Below, piece by piece: positions 35,838 to 46,058 of a DNA stretch of 64,000 nucleotides. Under the pieces are notes generated by a model. The model was given only the letters and a program-made list of their open reading frames with translations. It was not told the origin of the DNA and did no database searches. Source of the stretch: Geothrix sp. (GTDB lineage Bacteria > Acidobacteriota > Holophagae > Holophagales > Holophagaceae). The translations under genes and the position numbers were made by a program. How positions within the stretch are numbered: the stretch's first letter is position 1; every line of letters starts with the position of its first letter. The stretch spans positions 62,001-126,000 of the forward strand of contig NZ_CP126625.1 in NCBI RefSeq assembly GCF_030219325.1, written 5' to 3'.

Positions 35838-37006
35838 CCGCGCATCCCTGCCCCATCTGTGCCGGAGACCGGACCACGGTCTTCCTCCGGCGCGATGGCG
35901 TGCCTGTGCACCAGAACCTGGTGATGGCCACTCCGGAGGCCGCGCGTTCACTGGCCCGGGGTGACCTGACTTTTGCGGTGTGCCCGGACTGCGGCTTCGT
36001 GTTCAACCAGGCCTTCGACCTCGCCCGGCTGGCCTATGGCGAAGACTACGATAACACCCAGTCCTGCTCCGCGACCTTCAACACCTACCTGGATGGGCTG
36101 GTGGAGGACCTCGTCGACCGCCACGGGGTGCGGAACTGCGCCATCGTGGAAGTGGGCTGCGGCAAGGGTGGGTTCCTCCGCAAGCTGGTGGAATTCGCAG
36201 ACGCCAACAACACGGGGACTGGTTTCGATCCAAGCTACGTGGGGGAGGCCACGAGCTCGGATGGGCGGCTGACCTTCCGCCAGTGCTACTACGATGACGC
36301 CTGCACGGAGATCCCCGCCGACGTGGTGGTCTGCCGTCACGTCATCGAGCATGTGCCGGACCCGATGAGCCTGCTGCGGTCGGTCCGGGCGGCGCTGTCC
36401 CGGTCGCCGAGGGCGCGGGTGTTCTTCGAGACGCCCTGCGTGGACTGGATCCTGCGCAACCAGGTGGTCTGGGATTTCTTCTACGAGCACTGCTCCCTGT
36501 TCACGGCCAGTTCCCTCGGAGTGGCCTTCGAGCGAGCCGGCTTTGCGGTGGACCGGGTCAAGCACATCTTCGGGGGGCAGTACCTCTGGCTGGAGGCGCG
36601 AGTGGCCGGGGCCACCCGGCCGACCCTCGAACCCGGCGAGACCGTGCAGCTTGCCCAGGCCTATGGGGCCAGGGAGGGCCAGCTGCGGCAGCGCTGGCAG
36701 GCGAGGCTGCTCGAGCTGGGAGCCCTGGGCCCCGTGGCGTTGTGGGGCGCGGGCGCCAAGGGAGCCACCCTCGCGAACCTCGCGGATCCGGACGGCACGC
36801 ACATCGACTGCGTGGTGGACCTGAATCCGAACAAGCAGGGCGGCTTCATTCCGGGCACGGGACACCCCATCGTGGCACCGGCCGACCTCCCCGGTCGCGG
36901 CGTGAAGCGGGCCATCCTCATGAACCCGAACTACCGCCAGGAGAACCTGCGTCTCCTGGCGGAACATGGAATCAACCTTGATCTGCTGGACTGGAGCGAG
37001 CCATGA
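35834..37006 (+). CDS. SAM methyltransferase with sugar C-methyltransferase C-terminal domain
   Basis: 390 residues. N-terminal Cys pairs (CPICAG near residue 6, CPDCGF near 50) suggest the same zinc knuckle as the earlier methyltransferase. The SAM site is IVEVGCGKGGFLRKL near 105, with VVVCRHVIEHVPDPM. The C-terminal part (ALWGAGAKGATLANL, CVVDLNPNKQGGFIPG) again matches the C-methyltransferase family. Sequence identity with the 33715-34941 protein is low, so it is not a recent duplicate. A second methylation, or methylation of a different sugar, is likely. Confidence 0.86.
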   Translation: MTAHPCPICAGDRTTVFLRRDGVPVHQNLVMATPEAARSLARGDLTFAVCPDCGFVFNQAFDLARLAYGEDYDNTQSCSATFNTYLDGLVEDLVDRHGVRNCAIVEVGCGKGGFLRKLVEFADANNTGTGFDPSYVGEATSSDGRLTFRQCYYDDACTEIPADVVVCRHVIEHVPDPMSLLRSVRAALSRSPRARVFFETPCVDWILRNQVVWDFFYEHCSLFTASSLGVAFERAGFAVDRVKHIFGGQYLWLEARVAGATRPTLEPGETVQLAQAYGAREGQLRQRWQARLLELGALGPVALWGAGAKGATLANLADPDGTHIDCVVDLNPNKQGGFIPGTGHPIVAPADLPGRGVKRAILMNPNYRQENLRLLAEHGINLDLLDWSEP

Positions 37007-37767
37007 GACTGTCCCTGGACACCGACGCCAAGACACTCACCCTGGATGAAGGTGGAATCGGCAAGGTCGTGGACCTGTACTCCAAGGAGGCCTTCGAGGC
37101 CCTGTCCCGCCAGTGGGTGCGGCTGGGCTGGAACCAGAAATACCAGTACACCTTCAGCTGGATGGGCCGCCCGGTCATCCAGCTGCCGGAGGACATGATC
37201 CGCATGCAGGAGGTCATCTTCCAGGTGCAGCCGGACGTGATCATCGAGACCGGCGTGGCGCATGGCGGCTCCCTGATCTTCTATAGCAGTCTCTGCCGGG
37301 CCATGGGGAAGGGACGGGTCATCGGCATCGACATCGAGATCCGGCCCCACAACCGCAGGGCCATCGAGGCGCACCCGCTGAATGACCGCATCGAGCTGGT
37401 CGAAGGCAGCTCGACGGACCCCGGCATCGTGGCGCAGGTGAAATCGCTCGTGAAGCCCGGCGAGGCCGTGCTGGTCATCCTCGATTCGAATCACACCTAC
37501 GCGCACGTGCACGACGAGCTGGAAGCCTACGCGGACCTGGTGACGGCGGGCTCCTACATCGTCGCCACCGACGGCATCATGCTCGACCTGGCGGACGTGC
37601 CGCGCGGCGTGCCTGCTTGGGCCACGGACAATCCCACCTTCGCGGCCCGGGATTTCGCGGCGGAACATCCTGAGTTCGTGATCGAACAACCCACCTGGCC
37701 CTTCAACGAGAGCGGGCTGGACCAGAACATCACGCACTGGCCCGGAGCTTGGCTGAGGCGCCGCTAG
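37003..37767 (+). CDS. CmcI/cephalosporin hydroxylase-family methyltransferase
   Basis: 254 residues. Matches the family named after cephalosporin hydroxylase CmcI, many members of which are SAM-dependent sugar O-methyltransferases: VIIETGVAHGGSLIFYSSL (SAM loop near residue 83), GRVIGIDIEIRPHN, VLVILDSNHTYAHVHDEL and GSYIVATDGIM. It closes the sugar operon and overlaps the previous gene by 4 nt. O-methylation of the sugar before or after transfer is the likely role. Confidence 0.87.
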   Translation: MRLSLDTDAKTLTLDEGGIGKVVDLYSKEAFEALSRQWVRLGWNQKYQYTFSWMGRPVIQLPEDMIRMQEVIFQVQPDVIIETGVAHGGSLIFYSSLCRAMGKGRVIGIDIEIRPHNRRAIEAHPLNDRIELVEGSSTDPGIVAQVKSLVKPGEAVLVILDSNHTYAHVHDELEAYADLVTAGSYIVATDGIMLDLADVPRGVPAWATDNPTFAARDFAAEHPEFVIEQPTWPFNESGLDQNITHWPGAWLRRR

Positions 37768-37887
37768 GGGCCCGATTGACAGGTCGTCACCGCTGTTGTC
37801 CAGATTGTATTGATGGGCAGAATCCGGCATTAATGCGCGTAAACCCATCTATCAAGAAAAAATAAATTCCAGTTTTGCCGCCGGCTG

Positions 37888-37968
37888 TCCGAAGAGACTT
37901 CGGTTGGGGGATCCCCCCGGCACAACCCGGCAGCACGGATGCTGCCTCCTAACATCATGGAGGATGTT
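37888..37968 (+). promoter_or_regulatory. Structured flagellin leader 1 with two GGA-loop hairpins
   Basis: TCCGAAGA (37888-37895) is a possible flagellar-sigma -10. Then come a palindrome GGGGGATCCCCC (37906-37917), a 7-bp stem with CGGA loop (37929-37946) and a 6-bp stem (37951-37956 with 37963-37968) whose loop ATGGAG holds the ribosome site. The ATG follows directly. Both loops contain A-N-GGA, the core of CsrA sites, 22 nt apart. Confidence 0.6.
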
Positions 37969-38574
37969 ATGGTTACCATTCTGAGTAACGTGAATGCCCT
38001 GGCCGCAAGCCGCCAGCTCGGCGTCACCAAGATCGACCTGAACCGGACGATCACCCGTCTCACCACCGGCCGACGCGTCAACACCGCCTCGGACGACGCG
38101 GCCAGCCTCGACGCCGGCAACACGGCCATGGCCACTTCCCGTTCCGCGGCCGCCTCGGTTTACAAGAGCCAGGCCGCCTACTTCGTCGCCCTCAACACCG
38201 ATGGCGCCAACCAGCAGTTGACTGAACTGGCTTACAAGCAGGCCGAACTGGAAGGCGGCGGCAACAGCGGCCTCCAGGAATACACTGACCTCGCCGCCGT
38301 CGCCGGCATGGGCAGCAACTCGTCCGCTTCACTGGCCGCCATTGCCGCCAGCCAGAAGACCAACGCCGCCGCCATGTCCAAGGCGCTGAGCGATGCCCAG
38401 CTCTCCGGCATCTCCGCGGAAACGCAGCTCGGCATCGCCGACTCCTATCTGGGTGCCGACATGGGCGCCGAGATGGCGAACCTCACCAAGTACCAGATCA
38501 TGATGCAGGCTGGCACCAGTGCCCTGAGCAATGCCAACCAGTCCGCACAGACGATCCTGGGCCTCTTCCGGTAG
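37969..38574 (+). CDS. Flagellin, short form (copy 1)
   Basis: 201 residues, far shorter than most flagellins. It keeps the paired terminal helices: TILSNVNALAASRQLGVTKI and LNRTITRLTTGRRVNTASDD at the N-terminus and MMQAGTSALSNANQSAQTIL at the C-terminus. The middle is Ala/Ser-rich (GMGSNSSASLAAIAASQ) and leaves no room for outer D2/D3 domains. Forms the flagellar filament after export. The start is the ATG at 37969 with GGAGG in the leader hairpin; an ATG 30 nt upstream falls inside the leader structure. Regulation by a flagellar sigma factor and a CsrA-like repressor is suggested by the leader. Confidence 0.93.
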   Translation: MVTILSNVNALAASRQLGVTKIDLNRTITRLTTGRRVNTASDDAASLDAGNTAMATSRSAAASVYKSQAAYFVALNTDGANQQLTELAYKQAELEGGGNSGLQEYTDLAAVAGMGSNSSASLAAIAASQKTNAAAMSKALSDAQLSGISAETQLGIADSYLGADMGAEMANLTKYQIMMQAGTSALSNANQSAQTILGLFR

Positions 38575-38591
38575 TAGGCATTCTCTGACTT

Positions 38592-38624
38592 CTGGAGGGG
38601 GCGGAATCCTTCTGTCCCCTCCAG
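38592..38624 (+). promoter_or_regulatory. Conserved 11-bp stem-loop between flagellin and flaG (copy 1)
   Basis: Arms 38592-38602 and 38614-38624 pair over 11 bp with one G-U. It has no following T-run, so it looks like an mRNA stabilising or processing hairpin rather than a terminator. Copy 2 keeps the pairing with a different G-U. Confidence 0.6.
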
Positions 38625-38653
38625 GCGTTTGAAGTCCGGAGAGGAGGTTTGTC

Positions 38654-39001
38654 ATGGCCAATGCAATCAGTCCGTTGGGAAGTCTCCCCGTCGTGGCGAC
38701 TGGTGCCGCCTCGCCCAAGCCCGTCAGCGCACGGCCAGCCCCGGCTGCGGCCAGGGGTTCCGTGGGCAGTCCCGCGGCGGCTGCGGCCCAGATCAACCAG
38801 CACCTCCAGCAGGCCGAGCCGGAGCTCAAGCTCCAGGTGGACGCGGGCTCAGGCCGTACCGTCTACCAGGTCATCCAGCAGGGTACCGGCGAGGTGGTGC
38901 TGCAGATTCCTTCCGAGGAAGTGCTGGGGATGTCCCGGCGCCTGCGGGAAATGGAGGGCCAGGGTCAGCCATCCGGTGCCCTGGTGGACAAGGAGGGCTA
39001 G
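38654..39001 (+). CDS. flaG: FlaG family protein (copy 1)
   Basis: 115 residues. The N-terminal half is a Pro/Ala-rich flexible stretch. The C-terminal half is the FlaG core: INQHLQQAEPELKLQVDAG, TVYQVIQQGTGEVVLQIPSEE. FlaG proteins affect flagellar filament length, and are usually encoded beside flagellin and fliD. GAGAGGAGG lies 7 nt upstream. It follows the first flagellin by 79 nt. Confidence 0.9.
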   Translation: MANAISPLGSLPVVATGAASPKPVSARPAPAAARGSVGSPAAAAAQINQHLQQAEPELKLQVDAGSGRTVYQVIQQGTGEVVLQIPSEEVLGMSRRLREMEGQGQPSGALVDKEG

Positions 39002-39065
39002 GCTTTCCTGCTCTTGTGCCAATCGAAGTGCGTGTAAGTGAATGCATCCAGCAGTCTCACCGTCG

Positions 39066-39097
39066 GGGCCCTTCTCCTGGAGGGCCCATCCTGTTTT
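39066..39097 (+). terminator. Probable intrinsic terminator after the first flagellin-flaG unit
   Basis: A perfect 7-bp GC stem (39066-39072 with 39081-39087) with an 8-nt loop is followed by a short T-rich end (ATCCTGTTTT). It sits between flaG copy 1 and the second promoter. Confidence 0.55.
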
Positions 39098-39156
39098 ATG
39101 ACGAGAATCCCGCCAACCCGAATTGAGGCGCCGTCATCACACGAGAGAAAAAAGAT

Positions 39157-39184
39157 TAAAGTTTGCACCCACCCCGTCCGAAGA
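39157..39184 (+). promoter_or_regulatory. Candidate sigma-28 (FliA) promoter for flagellin copy 2
   Basis: TAAAGTTT at 39157-39164 equals the sigma-28 -35 consensus. Twelve nt later TCCGAAGA (39177-39184) agrees with GCCGATAA at 5 of 8 positions. Copy 1 keeps the same -10 but only a partial -35 (CCAGTTTT). Confidence 0.6.
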
Positions 39185-39216
39185 GACTCGGGTCGGGGGA
39201 TTCCCCCACACAACCT

Positions 39217-39256
39217 GGCGGCACGGATGCTGCCTTAAAACATCACGGAGGATGTC
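39217..39256 (+). promoter_or_regulatory. Structured flagellin leader 2 with two GGA-loop hairpins
   Basis: A stem 39217-39223/39228-39234 with loop CGGA is followed by a stem 39239-39244/39251-39256 with loop ACGGAG, which holds the ribosome site. One base in the first stem has changed from A to G relative to leader 1 and still pairs (G-U). Confidence 0.6.
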
Positions 39257-39862
39257 ATGGTCACCATTCTGAGCAACGTCAATGCTCTCGCCGCCAGCCG
39301 CCAGCTCGGCGTCACCAAGATCGACCTGAACCGGACGATCACCCGCCTCACCACCGGCCGACGCGTCAACACCGCCTCGGACGACGCGGCCAGCCTCGAC
39401 GCCGGCAACACGGCCATGGCCGCCTCCCGCTCCGCGGCCGCCTCGGTTTACAAGAGCCAGGCTGGCTACTTCGTCGCCCTCAACACCGATGGCGCCAACC
39501 AGCAGCTGACCGAACTGGCCTACAAGCAGGCCGAACTGGAAGGCGGAGGCAACAGCGGCCTCCAGGAATACACCGACCTCGCCGCCGTCGCCGGCATGGG
39601 CAGCAACTCGTCCGCCTCGCTGGCCCTCATTGCCACCAGCCAGAAGACCAACGCCGCCGCCATGTCCAAGGCGTTGAGCGATGCCCAGCTCTCCGGCATC
39701 TCCGCGGAAACGCAGCTCGGCATCGCCGACTCCTATCTGGGTGCCGACATGGGCGCCGAGATGGCGAACCTCACCAAGTACCAGATCATGATGCAGGCTG
39801 GCACCAGTGCCCTGAGCAATGCCAACCAGTCCGCACAGACGATCCTGGGCCTCTTCCGGTAG
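39257..39862 (+). CDS. Flagellin, short form (copy 2)
   Basis: 201 residues, differing from copy 1 only at four positions (Thr/Ala, Ala/Gly, Ala/Leu, Ala/Thr), all in the central part. The terminal polymerisation helices are identical. It has the better promoter of the two and leads a transcript that continues through flaG copy 2 into fliD, as no terminator is seen after flaG 2. ATG at 39257 follows the leader hairpin directly. Confidence 0.93.
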   Translation: MVTILSNVNALAASRQLGVTKIDLNRTITRLTTGRRVNTASDDAASLDAGNTAMAASRSAAASVYKSQAGYFVALNTDGANQQLTELAYKQAELEGGGNSGLQEYTDLAAVAGMGSNSSASLALIATSQKTNAAAMSKALSDAQLSGISAETQLGIADSYLGADMGAEMANLTKYQIMMQAGTSALSNANQSAQTILGLFR

Positions 39863-39879
39863 TAGGCATTCTCTGACTT

Positions 39880-39912
39880 CTGGGGGGGGCGGATCCAATC
39901 TGCCCCCTCCAG
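39880..39912 (+). promoter_or_regulatory. Conserved 11-bp stem-loop between flagellin and flaG (copy 2)
   Basis: Arms 39880-39890 and 39902-39912. Relative to copy 1 one arm base is changed and remains paired as G-U, while the copy 1 G-U has become G-C. Confidence 0.6.
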
Positions 39913-39941
39913 GCATTTGAAGTCCGGAGAGGAGGTTTGTC

Positions 39942-40289
39942 ATGGCCAATCCAATCAGCCCGCTGGGAAATCTCCCCGTCGTGGTGACTGGTGCCGCCTC
40001 GCCCAAGCCCGTCAGCGCACGGCCAGCCCCGGCTGCGGCCAGGGGTTCCGTGGGCAGTCCCGCGGCGGCTGCAGCCCAGATCAACCAGCACCTCCAGCAG
40101 GCCGAGCCGGAGCTCAAGCTCCAGGTGGACGCGGGCTCAGGCCGTACCGTCTACCAGGTCATCCAGCAGGGTACCGGCGAGGTGGTGCTGCAGATTCCTT
40201 CCGAGGAAGTGCTGGGGATGTCCCGGCGCCTGCGGGAAATGGAAGGCCAGGGCCACTCTTCCGGTGCCCTGGTGGACAGGGAGGGCTAG
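39942..40289 (+). CDS. flaG: FlaG family protein (copy 2)
   Basis: 115 residues, with six changes from copy 1 (at both ends; the core LKLQVDAGSGRTVYQVIQQG is identical). Same ribosome site. It lies 33 nt upstream of fliD, in the usual flaG-fliD-fliS order. Confidence 0.9.
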   Translation: MANPISPLGNLPVVVTGAASPKPVSARPAPAAARGSVGSPAAAAAQINQHLQQAEPELKLQVDAGSGRTVYQVIQQGTGEVVLQIPSEEVLGMSRRLREMEGQGHSSGALVDREG

Positions 40290-40322
40290 ACTTTCCTGCT
40301 CGCATGACTATCGAGGTGTGTG

Positions 40323-42044
40323 ATGGCGACTTCATCCTTGACTTCAATCAGCGGCATCACCACTGGCATCGACACCAAGGCCCTCGTCGATGCCATCGTG
40401 GCCCAGAAGGCCACTGGCATGAACCGGCTGCAGGCCAAGAAGGATCTCAACGACAAGAAGACGGCGGCGCTCACCGCCATGCGGACCGCCCTGACCACCC
40501 TGTCCCTCAGCATGGCCAGCCTTCAGGACAAGCTGAACAGCCGCACGGTGACGAGCACCGACACCAACAACACCAATGTGACGGCGACCGCGACAGGCAT
40601 CGCCTCCGGCAATTACGACATCAGCGTCAAAACGGTCGCCACCAAGGGTCGCCTGTCGGCGGCCCTCGACCCCGTGACGGGCTACACCCTGTCGGTGGCC
40701 AACCCCGGCGATTCCACGCTCTCCCCGATCTTCACGTCTGGAACCTCGGCCACCTTCGCCGTCCAGGGCACCGATGGCGTCGTCAAGGAGATCACCCTCG
40801 ATGCCTCGTCCAATTCCCTGAATGGCCTGCGGGACAAGATCAATGCCTCGGGGGCCGGCGTCACCGCCACGGTGGTGAACGTGGGCAAGGGCAGCAGTCC
40901 CTATCAGCTCGTGCTGACCGCCAAGGACACGGGTACCGGGAAGACTGGCGGCGTCGTGACCCTCGCCACCCTGTCGGGCACAGTGGCCGCCTCCCTGGGG
41001 ATCGCGAGCGGAAGCTACGGCGCGCCCCTGGCGGATGGCACGCAGACCATCGTGGGCGGCGTGACCTCCGCCACGTCTGGCGCGAATGCCACGGATGCGG
41101 ACTTCACCCTCAACGGCATCGAGCTCACGCGCACGACCAACGTGGTGAAGGATGCGGTCGATGGCATGACCTTCACCCTGAAGCAGGGGAACCAGGCCGG
41201 AACGACCACCCTGTCGGTGGCTCCCGACAAGGCCGGGGCCACGGCCGCAGTGCAGGACTTCATCACGAAATACAACCAGCTGATGAAGGACTACCACGAC
41301 GCCTCGACCTCCACCAAGAACGCGGACGGCAGCATCAACCAGGCGCCGCTGGCGTCGGATTCGGCCACCCGCGCCATGATGGGCAACCTCAAGGCCACCC
41401 TGTTCGGCCAAACGGCCGGGCTGCCCGGCGGAGCCACCTACAAGACGCTTCCCAACATCGGGATCAGCACCCAGGCAGACGGCACCGTCTACCTGAACAC
41501 CATCACCTTCCAGACGGCCATGACCAACGACTTGGCCTCCGTCCAGCGTCTGTTCACCTTTGCCGGGGATTCCACCAGCCCGGCCGTGACCGTCAGGGCG
41601 GGTGGCAGCAAGACTGTGACGGGTCCTATTGATTTTGCCATCACGAAGGATGCGGGAACGGGCGTGCTCTGGGGGACGCTGACCCGCAATGGCGTGACCA
41701 GCGACCCGATCCAGGTGACGGATGGCGTCCTGTCTGGGACGGGCGATTTTGCCGGTCTGAGCCTCGCCGTCGGTGGCGCGGGCAGTGGAACCATCACCCT
41801 GAGCCGGGGCGTGGGCCAGGCGGCGAAGGACCTCATCACCAATTTCACCACCCCCGGCAGCGCGGGCGGGATCTCGTCCATCCTGGATTCCATCCAGGCC
41901 CAGAACAAGAGCTTGGGCTCCCAGATTCAAGATGCCCAGACGCGGTTGAACCATGAAAGGGACAACCTGACCAAGAAGTTCGCCCAGATGGAATCTGTGG
42001 TGGCCCAGATGAGGGCCGGTGCCAGCTCCCTTGGTTCGGCCTGA
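40323..42044 (+). CDS. fliD: Flagellar filament cap protein FliD
   Basis: 573 residues. The N-terminal FliD domain reads SLTSISGITTGIDTKALVDAIV and continues with coiled-coil helices to about 75. The C-terminal FliD domain has FTLNGIELTRTTNVVKDAV (near 260) and ends in a long amphipathic helix (SLGSQIQDAQTRLNHERDNL) that inserts between flagellin subunits. The Thr/Ser/Gly-rich middle forms the cap plates. It promotes flagellin polymerisation at the filament tip. ATG at 40323 has GAGG 6 nt upstream; a GTG 3 nt earlier is too close. Confidence 0.95.
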   Translation: MATSSLTSISGITTGIDTKALVDAIVAQKATGMNRLQAKKDLNDKKTAALTAMRTALTTLSLSMASLQDKLNSRTVTSTDTNNTNVTATATGIASGNYDISVKTVATKGRLSAALDPVTGYTLSVANPGDSTLSPIFTSGTSATFAVQGTDGVVKEITLDASSNSLNGLRDKINASGAGVTATVVNVGKGSSPYQLVLTAKDTGTGKTGGVVTLATLSGTVAASLGIASGSYGAPLADGTQTIVGGVTSATSGANATDADFTLNGIELTRTTNVVKDAVDGMTFTLKQGNQAGTTTLSVAPDKAGATAAVQDFITKYNQLMKDYHDASTSTKNADGSINQAPLASDSATRAMMGNLKATLFGQTAGLPGGATYKTLPNIGISTQADGTVYLNTITFQTAMTNDLASVQRLFTFAGDSTSPAVTVRAGGSKTVTGPIDFAITKDAGTGVLWGTLTRNGVTSDPIQVTDGVLSGTGDFAGLSLAVGGAGSGTITLSRGVGQAAKDLITNFTTPGSAGGISSILDSIQAQNKSLGSQIQDAQTRLNHERDNLTKKFAQMESVVAQMRAGASSLGSA

Positions 42045-42102
42045 GACTTGCCTCGACTCATGATTCGGCAGAAATCGCCGAAACACAGCTGGGGGACCCA
42101 TC

Positions 42103-42528
42103 GTGAACGCCTATGCCAAATCCGCAGATGCCTACCTGACCCAGCGCATCATGAGTGCCAGTCCCGAACAGCAGGCGGCCCTGATCATGGAGGCCGGCCA
42201 GCGGCACCTGGGCAGGTCCATCCAGGCCTTGAACCGCAATGACATTTCGGGGGCGGCCACCAGTCTCACCCGGGTCCTGGATGCCATCACCGAGGCGACC
42301 CTCCGCCTCAACTACGAAGACGGCGGAGAGCTGGTCGAGAACCTTGAGAAACTCTACGACTGGTGGACGCGAGAGCTCGTGGCCGCCGGTCACCTCAAGG
42401 ATGCGAAGCGCCTGGCGGTGGTGGCCGAGCAGATGGGTGACATCCGGCAGGCCTGGGAGCAGTTCCACGAGAAGAAGACCGGCGCCGTCCAGGGGGCCGA
42501 GCCTTCCTTCGGGAACCAGGTCATATGA
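42103..42528 (+). CDS. fliS: Flagellin export chaperone FliS
   Basis: 141 residues from GTG. It keeps the FliS pattern: AYLTQRIMSASPEQQAALIM, then a four-helix bundle with LVENLEKLYDWWTRELV. FliS binds the C-terminal helix of flagellin in the cytoplasm and prevents early polymerisation. It follows fliD by 58 nt and overlaps the next gene by 4 nt. Confidence 0.93.
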   Translation: MNAYAKSADAYLTQRIMSASPEQQAALIMEAGQRHLGRSIQALNRNDISGAATSLTRVLDAITEATLRLNYEDGGELVENLEKLYDWWTRELVAAGHLKDAKRLAVVAEQMGDIRQAWEQFHEKKTGAVQGAEPSFGNQVI

Positions 42529-42824
42529 GCGATGCCAGGGTCCGCGCGGCCATCGAGGAGATGGAGGCGTGGCTGGCCGACCCCGCCTGGGAGCCGGAGG
42601 CCGAGGCCCTTGCCCGCTGGGATGCGGAGTTCAGGGCGGCGATGGCGCAGGCGGAGCGGGCGGAAGGGTGGCCAGCCCTGGCCGGCCGGGCCCACGCGGC
42701 CGGGAAGCTGCTGGAAGCCCGCATCCCGGTGGCTGTCGAGGCGCTGAACCGGGTCCGGGCGGAACTGGAAACCCAGGCCCAGGGGAACCGGGCGCTGAAG
42801 GGTTACGGCGCTGGGGTCCGCTGA
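42525..42824 (+). CDS. Small helical protein, probable FliT-like flagellar chaperone
   Basis: 99 residues, almost all helical with many Ala, Glu and Arg (IEEMEAWLADPAWEPEAEAL, GKLLEARIPVAVEALNRVRA). There is no clear family motif. Size, helical content and position directly after fliS with a 4-nt overlap fit FliT-type proteins, which bind FliD. That identity is inference. Confidence 0.6.
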   Translation: MSDARVRAAIEEMEAWLADPAWEPEAEALARWDAEFRAAMAQAERAEGWPALAGRAHAAGKLLEARIPVAVEALNRVRAELETQAQGNRALKGYGAGVR

Positions 42825-42877: not shown

Positions 42878-45800
42878 CTACAGCCAGGCGTCACTGGCGG
42901 TCGTGATCGGCTTGAGCCCCGTGATTGGCCTCATGTCGCGGTGGATGGCCAGCATGCTGATCGAGCAGGCCCTGGGGGAAGGGGATCCGACAGCCGACTG
43001 TGGGGGGGCGTGCCACCAGAGTCGATAGTCCATCTCGAAAAGCCGCTGGATCAAATCAGCGGATTTCTCCGCATGGTCGTTCTTGATGTACATGATCGGC
43101 CGACAGCGCTTGATGGTCTCGGCGGCTCCTTCCAGGACGGCGGCTTCGTCCCCCCCCACGTCGAGCCTGATGAAATCCACCCGGTCCAGCTGGAAATCGT
43201 CCAGTCTGCCCAGGGGGACCACCTCGCCCTCCTCGGCGTCATCCCCGGTTCTCCCGTCCAGATCGCCGGATTGGGAGTCACCCAAGGCGCGGAGCTGGCA
43301 TTCGCCAGTGCAGGGACCCAGAGCCATGGCATAGGTGACGGCGTTGGGAATGCTGTTGAGCACGAGGTTCGCACAGAGGTTTTTGTACAGAACCGGCTGA
43401 GGCTCGAACGCGACCACGACCCCGCCGGAACCCGCGAGCTGGGCCAGGGGCACCGTGCGGGTACCGACACTTGCCCCCACATCGAGGACGATGCTCCCGA
43501 TGCCGACGAATTGGCTGAACAGCTGAAATTCCTCCTGGCTCAATTCCCCCGTTCCGGCCATGGAAGGCGCCCCGGGTTGGCCCCCCACCGGAACGAGCAT
43601 CCGGCCGTATCGGGTCTCCCGAAGGTCGACGGAGGGCGGGAATGGCCGGATGGGGGAGGTTTTCGCAGGGGGTTCGGATGGGCTCCCCGGCAGGCCGAAA
43701 CGCTGCTGGACGAGCGACAATCTCCGCCCCATCTCGGCACTTCCAAAGCCCAAAGCCCGGATCTTCTCCAGGCGCGGCAGAGCCGTGGTTCCGGTGTAGT
43801 AGGACGAATAGGACCCGAGGCGTTCGATTTCCTCCAGAATGGCCGCCAGCATCCAATTGTCGACGGAGGGCCCGGTGGCGAGGAGGTCAAACCGTCCTCC
43901 TGGAGCCAGGAAGGGTTCGTCCAGTTCCAGGCGATTGCGATGGACGATGCGGTCGAGCAGCTGCTGGAGTGCCTGCACGGCACAGGCCCTGTACCCGAAA
44001 TCCCGGGCGACGCGCGCGAGGCTGGCGAGCCGCATGTTGGAGGGGTCGCGCTCGCACAGGGCGCGCAACGCGCGAAAGCTCTTTTCCAGCGACGACACGC
44101 GCTCGGTCAAAGGAAGAGACGGATCTTGGCACACAGCATACTGAGCGAGGGCCGCCTCCACCTCGACGCTATTTCCAGCTGCCGCCGTCGCTTTCCAAGA
44201 TTCAAGCAGTTGGGCTCCATAGGGGAGGACAGCAAGGCTGGACCGCCAATCATGGGTCCTCCCGGAGGCCGTCCTTCCGACAGCTTCTTCTGAACCAGCG
44301 CCGGAGGGGGCCGGGCCTCCAAAGGCGGCTGCGGGTACGAGGAACCCCTGCCCAGCGAGGGATCGCGCACGATCCTGCTTGCAGCAGTACAGATTCAAAA
44401 GGTACCCATCCTCCATGGATTCGGCATCGATGGGGACAAGCACATTGAGCCCGGGGACCAGGCGATATGAGTCATATCCGAGCGCGGTGAAGTGATGGAT
44501 CAACTCCATGTGTACTGTGTCACCAGCTCGTATTTCATACTGAATCAAGGGTGAGAGCCGATCGAAGAAATGCTTGCCACCCTCCAAAATATTGGACTCT
44601 TCACCCTCTGCATCAATCTTAATGAACTCAATGTTTAACCAATCATTTTCGTTCATGCAATCATCAAGCGTGACAAGCTTCACGACCTCAGTGGCCCCGG
44701 CATGTTGGGGATCCTGCGTAAGGGCATTGAGCTCCGAATTGGCATTCAGGCTTAAGCAGGCGGTCCCACGAGCTTTGGAGAGAGCGCTGCGCTCGAGGAC
44801 GACATTTGAAACGTGGTTGACGGCCATCGATTCGGCAAGAAACCCCGCGGTGGTCGAGGCGGGTTCGAAGGCCCATACGCAACCGGTTGGACCGACGGTC
44901 TTGGCCATGGACAGGGTGTAGGTCCCGTAGTTTGCGCCAATGTCAATCACCCTCTGGCCTGGTTGCAGCAACCTGCGGAGGAATTTGATGTCGTCCTCGA
45001 ACCAGTCCTGCTGCTCTGAGAGCACATAGGTCGTGATTAAATCCAGCGAATCTGGCACCACGATTTTCACGCCATCAACCATGGTGTGGATGACCTTGGG
45101 CGGCCCTTGCACGGCTTCCCCATGCAGTGCCGGCCGAGTCAGCGCCTGGAGGTAAGGCTCACCGAGTTTGGTACCGGTGCGCCTGTCGTGCTCATTCAAG
45201 AGGAAGAGCGCCACATCGGGGCTTCCGTACAGGGCGAGGAAGATTGCCATTTTCTGCAACTGATCGGAAGTTAGGGCGTCGAGATGGAAAAGATCGCGGA
45301 TGAAAATGGCGTCCGCCCACATCTGCTGGTTCAAATGGTTGGTGTCGTTATTGAACACCAATGGCTTGACCGTGCGCCCGGCCCCGCCGATGAACTTGTG
45401 GAAGGTGAAGCCCCGGCTGCGGAGGAATGCATCTACGTCGCCGAAGAGGGGCTGTCCCAGGTACAGCGGAACAAATTCGACTTCGCAAACAATGAACAGG
45501 ACATCCTGCAGAACCGCGGCCGCGCCCTGCAGGGCCTCCAACTCGGCTCCTTGGATGTCCATCTTGATGAAGTCCACGCAGCCGATGGCCTGCTCTTCCA
45601 CAAATTCATCGAGCGGCACCGTATCGATCGAGCTGGTCTTCTTCAGCCGCATGACGTCAAGGTTATGAAACAGATCGGCATATCGCTCATCGGGGGGGAA
45701 CAACGAGCCGCACATCGAGTGGACGGTTTCGTAGAAAGGGCGCGTTTCCCTGCGTTTTGCCACGGCGGTGGGATAGTAGCGGACGCCTCGAGGCGCCTTG

Positions 45801-45976
45801 CGGTTCAGTTCGCTGCAGAGTTCAGCATCGGGTTCAAAGGCGACCACCTTCGACTTCGCCCACTGATCGAGCAGAGCGTGAAACGGCTCGCTCTTGGAGT
45901 CGATCGGTAAAGCCCCAAGTTCCAGCATGGTGAGCTCAAGGTCCCCTCCTGCCTTCTTGAGTAGATCGGAGAGCAT
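42878..45976 (-). CDS. Triple-domain FkbM-family methyltransferase
   Basis: 1032 residues with three FkbM-type SAM domains. Domain 1 (about 10-200): LELGALPIDSKSEPFHALL, VVAFEPDAELC, VDFIKMDIQGAELEAL. Domain 2 (about 305-540): VIDIGANYGTYTLSMAKTVG, WAFEPAS, IEFIKIDAEGEESNIL. Domain 3 (about 800-1000): IVLDVGASVGTRTVPLAQLA, VVAFEPQPVLYKNL, VDFIRLDVGGDEAAVL. A helical spacer lies at 590-760. Domain 1 has lost the glycine loop (GALPID for GANxG). FkbM enzymes O-methylate sugars or other small groups. The start is the ATG at 45976, 6 nt after AAGGA; the ATG 6 nt further up touches that site. DNA for domain 2 is clearly more AT-rich than its surroundings. Confidence 0.88.
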   Translation of the reverse strand: MLSDLLKKAGGDLELTMLELGALPIDSKSEPFHALLDQWAKSKVVAFEPDAELCSELNRKAPRGVRYYPTAVAKRRETRPFYETVHSMCGSLFPPDERYADLFHNLDVMRLKKTSSIDTVPLDEFVEEQAIGCVDFIKMDIQGAELEALQGAAAVLQDVLFIVCEVEFVPLYLGQPLFGDVDAFLRSRGFTFHKFIGGAGRTVKPLVFNNDTNHLNQQMWADAIFIRDLFHLDALTSDQLQKMAIFLALYGSPDVALFLLNEHDRRTGTKLGEPYLQALTRPALHGEAVQGPPKVIHTMVDGVKIVVPDSLDLITTYVLSEQQDWFEDDIKFLRRLLQPGQRVIDIGANYGTYTLSMAKTVGPTGCVWAFEPASTTAGFLAESMAVNHVSNVVLERSALSKARGTACLSLNANSELNALTQDPQHAGATEVVKLVTLDDCMNENDWLNIEFIKIDAEGEESNILEGGKHFFDRLSPLIQYEIRAGDTVHMELIHHFTALGYDSYRLVPGLNVLVPIDAESMEDGYLLNLYCCKQDRARSLAGQGFLVPAAAFGGPAPSGAGSEEAVGRTASGRTHDWRSSLAVLPYGAQLLESWKATAAAGNSVEVEAALAQYAVCQDPSLPLTERVSSLEKSFRALRALCERDPSNMRLASLARVARDFGYRACAVQALQQLLDRIVHRNRLELDEPFLAPGGRFDLLATGPSVDNWMLAAILEEIERLGSYSSYYTGTTALPRLEKIRALGFGSAEMGRRLSLVQQRFGLPGSPSEPPAKTSPIRPFPPSVDLRETRYGRMLVPVGGQPGAPSMAGTGELSQEEFQLFSQFVGIGSIVLDVGASVGTRTVPLAQLAGSGGVVVAFEPQPVLYKNLCANLVLNSIPNAVTYAMALGPCTGECQLRALGDSQSGDLDGRTGDDAEEGEVVPLGRLDDFQLDRVDFIRLDVGGDEAAVLEGAAETIKRCRPIMYIKNDHAEKSADLIQRLFEMDYRLWWHAPPQSAVGSPSPRACSISMLAIHRDMRPITGLKPITTASDAWL

Positions 45977-46058
45977 GGTCATTCCTTTCCCTGGGCGTTG
46001 CGGCTTTGGTCACCGTGTATAGCACAACCAAAACAAGACTGGTCCCAACCCGCGGTCC

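Follow-up and report, generated by a model that had tools for sequence, protein, structure and literature searches.

Covarying twin hairpins in the flagellin leaders of Holophagaceae point to CsrA-FliW control of flagellin translation

In Bacillus, hag is repressed through two CsrA sites, with FliW as the antagonist (PMC7652899). The flaA leader of Campylobacter jejuni carries two ANGGA stem-loops, of which the second covers the ribosome site, and compensatory changes are seen among species; its repression has been shown experimentally, and mutants of the GGA motifs lose both CsrA binding and repression (PMC4894983). In Escherichia coli glgC, a high-affinity hairpin tethers CsrA, which then bridges to the Shine-Dalgarno (SD) sequence (PMC7652899). 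The SELEX consensus for such sites is RUACARGGAUGU, with a preference for six-nucleotide loops, and the RsmE structure indicates ANGGAN (PMC7652899). Regarding Acidobacteria, a survey published in 2015 offered the suggestion, and only that, that they may use FliW on CsrA (PMC4682653).

The window analyzed here, a 64-kb stretch of a Geothrix genome (64,000 nucleotides), contains a flagellin locus with the following genes and promoters.
37868..37894, forward strand: sigma28-like promoter of flagellin copy 1, TCCAGTTT-N11-GTCCGAAG
37969..38574, forward strand: flagellin copy 1, 201 aa (Pfam Flagellin_N and Flagellin_C)
38654..39001, forward strand: FlaG-like protein copy 1 (Pfam FlaG)
39157..39183, forward strand: sigma28-like promoter of flagellin copy 2, TAAAGTTT-N11-GTCCGAAG
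39257..39862, forward strand: flagellin copy 2, 201 aa (Pfam flagellin N and C)
39942..40289, forward strand: FlaG-like protein copy 2 (Pfam FlaG)
40320..42044, forward strand: FliD, filament cap (Pfam)
42103..42528, forward strand: FliS, flagellin chaperone (Pfam)

The flagellin-flaG unit (37969-40289) is a tandem duplication, with an identity of about 96% between the flagellin coding sequences; the likeness of the two leader copies alone is therefore weak proof, since these copies are not independent. The promoters follow a family pattern: of 51 family leaders, 48 have a CCGA element about 80 nt 5' of the ATG, and TAAAG precedes this element in most of them. Both flagellins are short and hold few residues besides their terminal domains. 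Adjoining the cluster, a 1034-aa protein (42878-45982, reverse strand) displays three FkbM-type methyltransferase stretches and possibly plays a role in flagellin glycan modification.

Read directly from the sequence and then folded, the two leaders yielded the following structures.
37903..37921, forward strand: 5'-proximal G/C hairpin of leader 1, accessory (from folding)
37929..37946, forward strand: hairpin 1 of leader 1, upstream putative CsrA site, GGCAGC[ACGGAT]GCTGCC, hexaloop ACGGAU with C-G closing
37952..37967, forward strand: hairpin 2 of leader 1, putative CsrA site over the SD, ACATC[ATGGAG]GATGT, hexaloop AUGGAG
39195..39207, forward strand: 5'-proximal G/C hairpin of leader 2, accessory (from folding)
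39217..39234, forward strand: hairpin 1 of leader 2, upstream putative CsrA site, GGCGGC[ACGGAT]GCTGCC, hexaloop ACGGAU
39240..39255, forward strand: hairpin 2 of leader 2, putative CsrA site over the SD, ACATC[ACGGAG]GATGT, hexaloop ACGGAG

A first-pass annotation had placed two stem-loops directly before each flagellin ATG, and both reading and folding agree with it: hairpins 1 and 2 stand directly 5' of the start codons at 37969 (copy 1) and 39257 (copy 2), and their GGA cores, at 37937/37959 in leader 1 and 39225/39247 in leader 2, are indeed separated by 22 nt in each copy. The one differing stem base that it reported is an A to G change in stem 1, the only hairpin-1 stem difference between the copies, which turns an A-U pair into a G-U pair. 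Its A-N-GGA loops also stood, except that the first, drawn as a CGGA tetraloop, is better described as a hexaloop, ACGGAU, closed by a C-G pair (RNAalifold). Loops of this type fit the SELEX/RsmE consensus as ANGGAN hexaloops. Hairpin 1 is very stable on folding, with six mostly G/C base pairs where SELEX ligands typically have no more than four (PMC7652899), and the SD core is unpaired, open in the hexaloop of hairpin 2. From copy 1 to copy 2, the stem-loops are 94% identical (one change per 16-18 nt) and the 5-nt linker 40%. Both strands of the window were scanned for two A-N-GGA hexaloops on stems of 4 bp or more and separated by 16-30 nt; exactly two pairs were found, both in the flagellin leaders, and 60 dinucleotide shuffles of the window gave one pair in total under the identical rule. 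Rfam gave no match for 36000-42600 at E up to 5. The 5'-proximal G/C hairpin, of which most genera have one, was considered as a switch component and rejected: we filed it as accessory because genus g11 and internal tandem flagellin copies are devoid of it and keep both GGA hairpins. It is possibly an mRNA stabilizer.

Flagellin homologs were then compared among 77 genomes of the same family, named Holophagaceae here on the basis of the named records near the window flagellin (Holophaga, Holophagaceae). Both hairpins were found in 42 distinct leaders, with A-N-GGA invariant in both loops. Loop 1 with its closing pair always reads CA[CA]GGA[UCA]G (CACGGAUG, CACGGACG, CAAGGACG, CAAGGAUG or CACGGAAG), and loop 2 with its closing pair always reads CA[CUA]GGAGG (CACGGAGG, CAUGGAGG or CAAGGAGG). 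The cores are 21-24 nt apart and the second GGA is located at -10 in nearly all of these leaders; one leader from outside the phylum, with a spacing of 26, was left out of the alignment. From the 42 leaders, RNAalifold returned exactly the two-hairpin structure and selected the hexaloop unprompted. Standard pairs occupied 98.7% of stem cells, vs. 92.3% in shuffles, and two-sided compensatory changes occurred at 7 of the 11 stem pairs (including GGUAGC/GCUACC, GACAGC/GCUGUC and GGCAAC/GUUGCC, and GCAUC/GAUGC vs. ACAUC/GAUGU). Cells changed on both sides numbered 40, vs. 8.0 in shuffles (0 of 500 shuffles reached 40), and this signal was gone when partners were shifted by 1-3 columns. The covariation check proposed in the first-pass annotation thus found both stems kept by compensatory changes. 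That the hairpin match between the two window copies merely reflects recent duplication was ruled out, as such changes preserve the structure in 42 distinct relatives.

Other flagellin genes of the family are informative in this respect. Where flagellins stand in tandem (L013, L014), downstream copies devoid of their own promoter or 5' hairpin retain both GGA hairpins. Several genomes have a second flagellin, located elsewhere, with neither hairpin (L039, L050, L051, L059, L061, L062); these internal negatives show that the hairpins do not simply come along with any flagellin gene. A pattern made of hairpin 2 and the start codon, with at most one mismatch, was matched in 53 genomes; reversed as a control, it matched no genome. 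A flagellin-like gene matched in two frames, probably broken (L149/L005, G045:C452), has an upstream region without either hairpin.

The proposed regulator and its antagonist, both sought in the genome as the earlier reading had advised, are present and adjacent. A single csrA (G000:C1:3560053, 74.4 bits for a cut-off of 27, E 2.9e-20) follows a single fliW (G000:C1:3559659, 130.8 bits, E 6.4e-38) located directly upstream, with about 22 nt between them, and the pair lies 3.46 Mb from the flagellin locus. CsrA has 83 aa and is C-terminally extended, with intact MLVITRK and VHRREVF stretches; its best PDB match is 5dmb_D (residues 2-64), from a FliW-CsrA structure, and FliW matches BH3618 and the FliW of 5dmb. 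Flagellin, fliW and csrA are retained or lost jointly in the family: 47 of the 77 genomes have all three and 20 have none (Fisher P 1e-9, with no correction for kinship), the remaining ten being mostly incomplete or fragmented assemblies.

FliW itself varies within the family. Two complete FliW domains were found in one open reading frame in L146 and L147, where it reads through and stands 5' of csrA, and paired FliW matches occur in G050, G051, G060 and G062-G076. Genera g3, g7, g8, g9, g10 and g11 have such a double FliW open frame; genus g1, which includes the source genome, has a single FliW. A limited literature search turned up no paper describing a fused FliW, a protein that would test FliW:CsrA stoichiometry.

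At the scale of the phylum, searches for flagellin, csrA and fliW covered 396 Acidobacteriota genomes; 60 retrieved flagellin leaders supplemented the ones that the covariance model had picked out, and one fixed rule was applied to all. Among the 40 sampled genomes with csrA, 26 have both sites and 35 have the SD site (kinship uncorrected). Family f28 has mostly the SD site alone at the expected place, and some f6 genomes score no site because only the first flagellin copy was sampled. By contrast with the csrA-bearing genomes, family f10, which has flagellin and neither csrA nor fliW, showed twin sites in none of its 14 sampled genomes, and they are absent too from G143 (family f41), without csrA and fliW. 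The association of twin sites with csrA gave a Fisher P of 1.6e-4 without kinship correction, and the independence of this absence test is limited because the csrA-less genomes come essentially from one family, with a single genome from a second. A lack of csrA, or flagellated relatives devoid of the stems or loops, had been named beforehand as evidence against CsrA control; csrA is there, and the flagellated relatives without twin sites are the sampled csrA- and fliW-less ones just described. Sites were present and csrA undetected in G234, G270 and G332, all fragmented drafts, two of which have family mates with csrA. Both loops also occur in three flagellin leaders from records not titled Acidobacteria (L006, L007, L008).

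Taken with Bacillus and Campylobacter, the source of the inference for CsrA binding, repression and FliW-mediated relief, these data make it very probable that CsrA, by bridging the two hairpins, represses translation of flagellin and that FliW relieves this repression. From a mechanistic point of view, each flagellin mRNA would start at its sigma28-type promoter and carry a leader with two CsrA-binding hairpins. A CsrA dimer would bind hairpin 1 first, then bridge the 22 nt to hairpin 2 and cover the SD, so that ribosomes would be unable to start. Once flagellin is exported, FliW would no longer be occupied and would remove CsrA from the leader; since FliW would free the leader during export, flagellin synthesis would track filament assembly. 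The hag-like control that the first-pass annotation proposed for this distant organism is thus supported, with CsrA binding and FliW relief as predicted steps.

The hairpins could, on another reading, act alone on translation or mRNA stability, as an SD-hiding hairpin, a thermometer or a 5' stabilizer independent of CsrA. The SD indeed lies within hairpin 2, and the stability of hairpin 1 and the extra 5' G/C hairpin are in line with this; however, the SD core is exposed in the loop rather than paired, loop 1 is invariant at A-N-GGA in the family without being an SD, and the sites are missing in the csrA-less family, which leaves CsrA-free tuning very unlikely. A larger, though still small, probability may be given to a leader which, being abundant, mainly serves as a CsrA sponge freeing other mRNAs, with self-repression as a secondary effect. 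The flaA mRNA of C. jejuni does titrate CsrA besides being repressed (PMC4894983), and consensus loops are found in every main copy and kept by internal tandem copies. A sponge would nonetheless not need site 2 to be always over the SD at about -10, and the loss of csrA together with flagellin in this family argues against it, since few other essential CsrA targets are then likely. As for CsrA binding activating or stabilizing the flagellin mRNA without any repression, E. coli flhDC is stabilized by CsrA via two 5' sites (PMC7652899), but the SD-covering position and the linked fliW resemble the repressed hag and flaA, and we regard this as the least probable reading, close to negligible.

The repression reading may not be limited to flagellin. 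A third strong match of the covariance model in the genome (1484825-1484869, reverse strand, 35.6 bits; G000:C1, L197/L075) precedes a 69-aa orphan open reading frame and has AAAGAC as its hairpin-1 loop. The hairpin-2 pattern revealed similar small genes in eight other family genomes (L182, L183, L184, L185, L195, L198, L199, L200), with sigma28-like CCGA or TCGA elements and the flagellin-type SD hairpin; their hairpin 1 retains GGA in some only. These proteins, of 53-86 aa, share an N-terminus M[ST][SGA]I.[GS][VL] and a C-terminus consisting of a hydrophobic residue followed by [ND]-x-x-A, and had no Pfam or NCBIfam match above cut-off. Three of them show a DKDxDGDVD stretch resembling a calcium loop. 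Other weak non-flagellin matches to the model, inspected singly, were chance-like hairpins or lay within other genes and were set aside. The model may point to a new family of small flagellar proteins. More tentatively than for flagellin repression itself, and with somewhat more doubt than confidence, we propose that the CsrA of Holophagaceae is a dedicated flagellar switch rather than a global regulator, kept or lost with the flagellum, that its targets are flagellin and the 53-86 aa family, and that a covalently fused double FliW is its antagonist in the sister genera.

This type of control is already known from Bacillus hag and Campylobacter flaA, and the Acidobacteriota leaders are a further example, which extends it to this phylum on evolutionary evidence, namely covarying stems, invariant loops and an absence that tracks csrA. 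As far as sequence allows a comparison, the leaders match the known systems in every visible feature. E. coli glgC has in common with the mechanism proposed here an upstream hairpin tether followed by bridging to the SD, and differs as a non-flagellin gene with four sites, whose antagonists are the CsrB/C RNAs rather than FliW. B. subtilis hag shares the two CsrA sites, one of them on the SD, the protein antagonist FliW and a C-terminally extended CsrA (PMC7652899); it belongs to another phylum, and the likeness is to its published description rather than to an aligned leader. C. jejuni flaA displays a nearly identical two-stem-loop layout, with fliW in the genome (PMC4894983). In C. jejuni, however, fliW lies apart from csrA, whereas it adjoins csrA in the window organism, and the window leaders add a 5' G/C hairpin and serve two tandem flagellins, each with its own unit.
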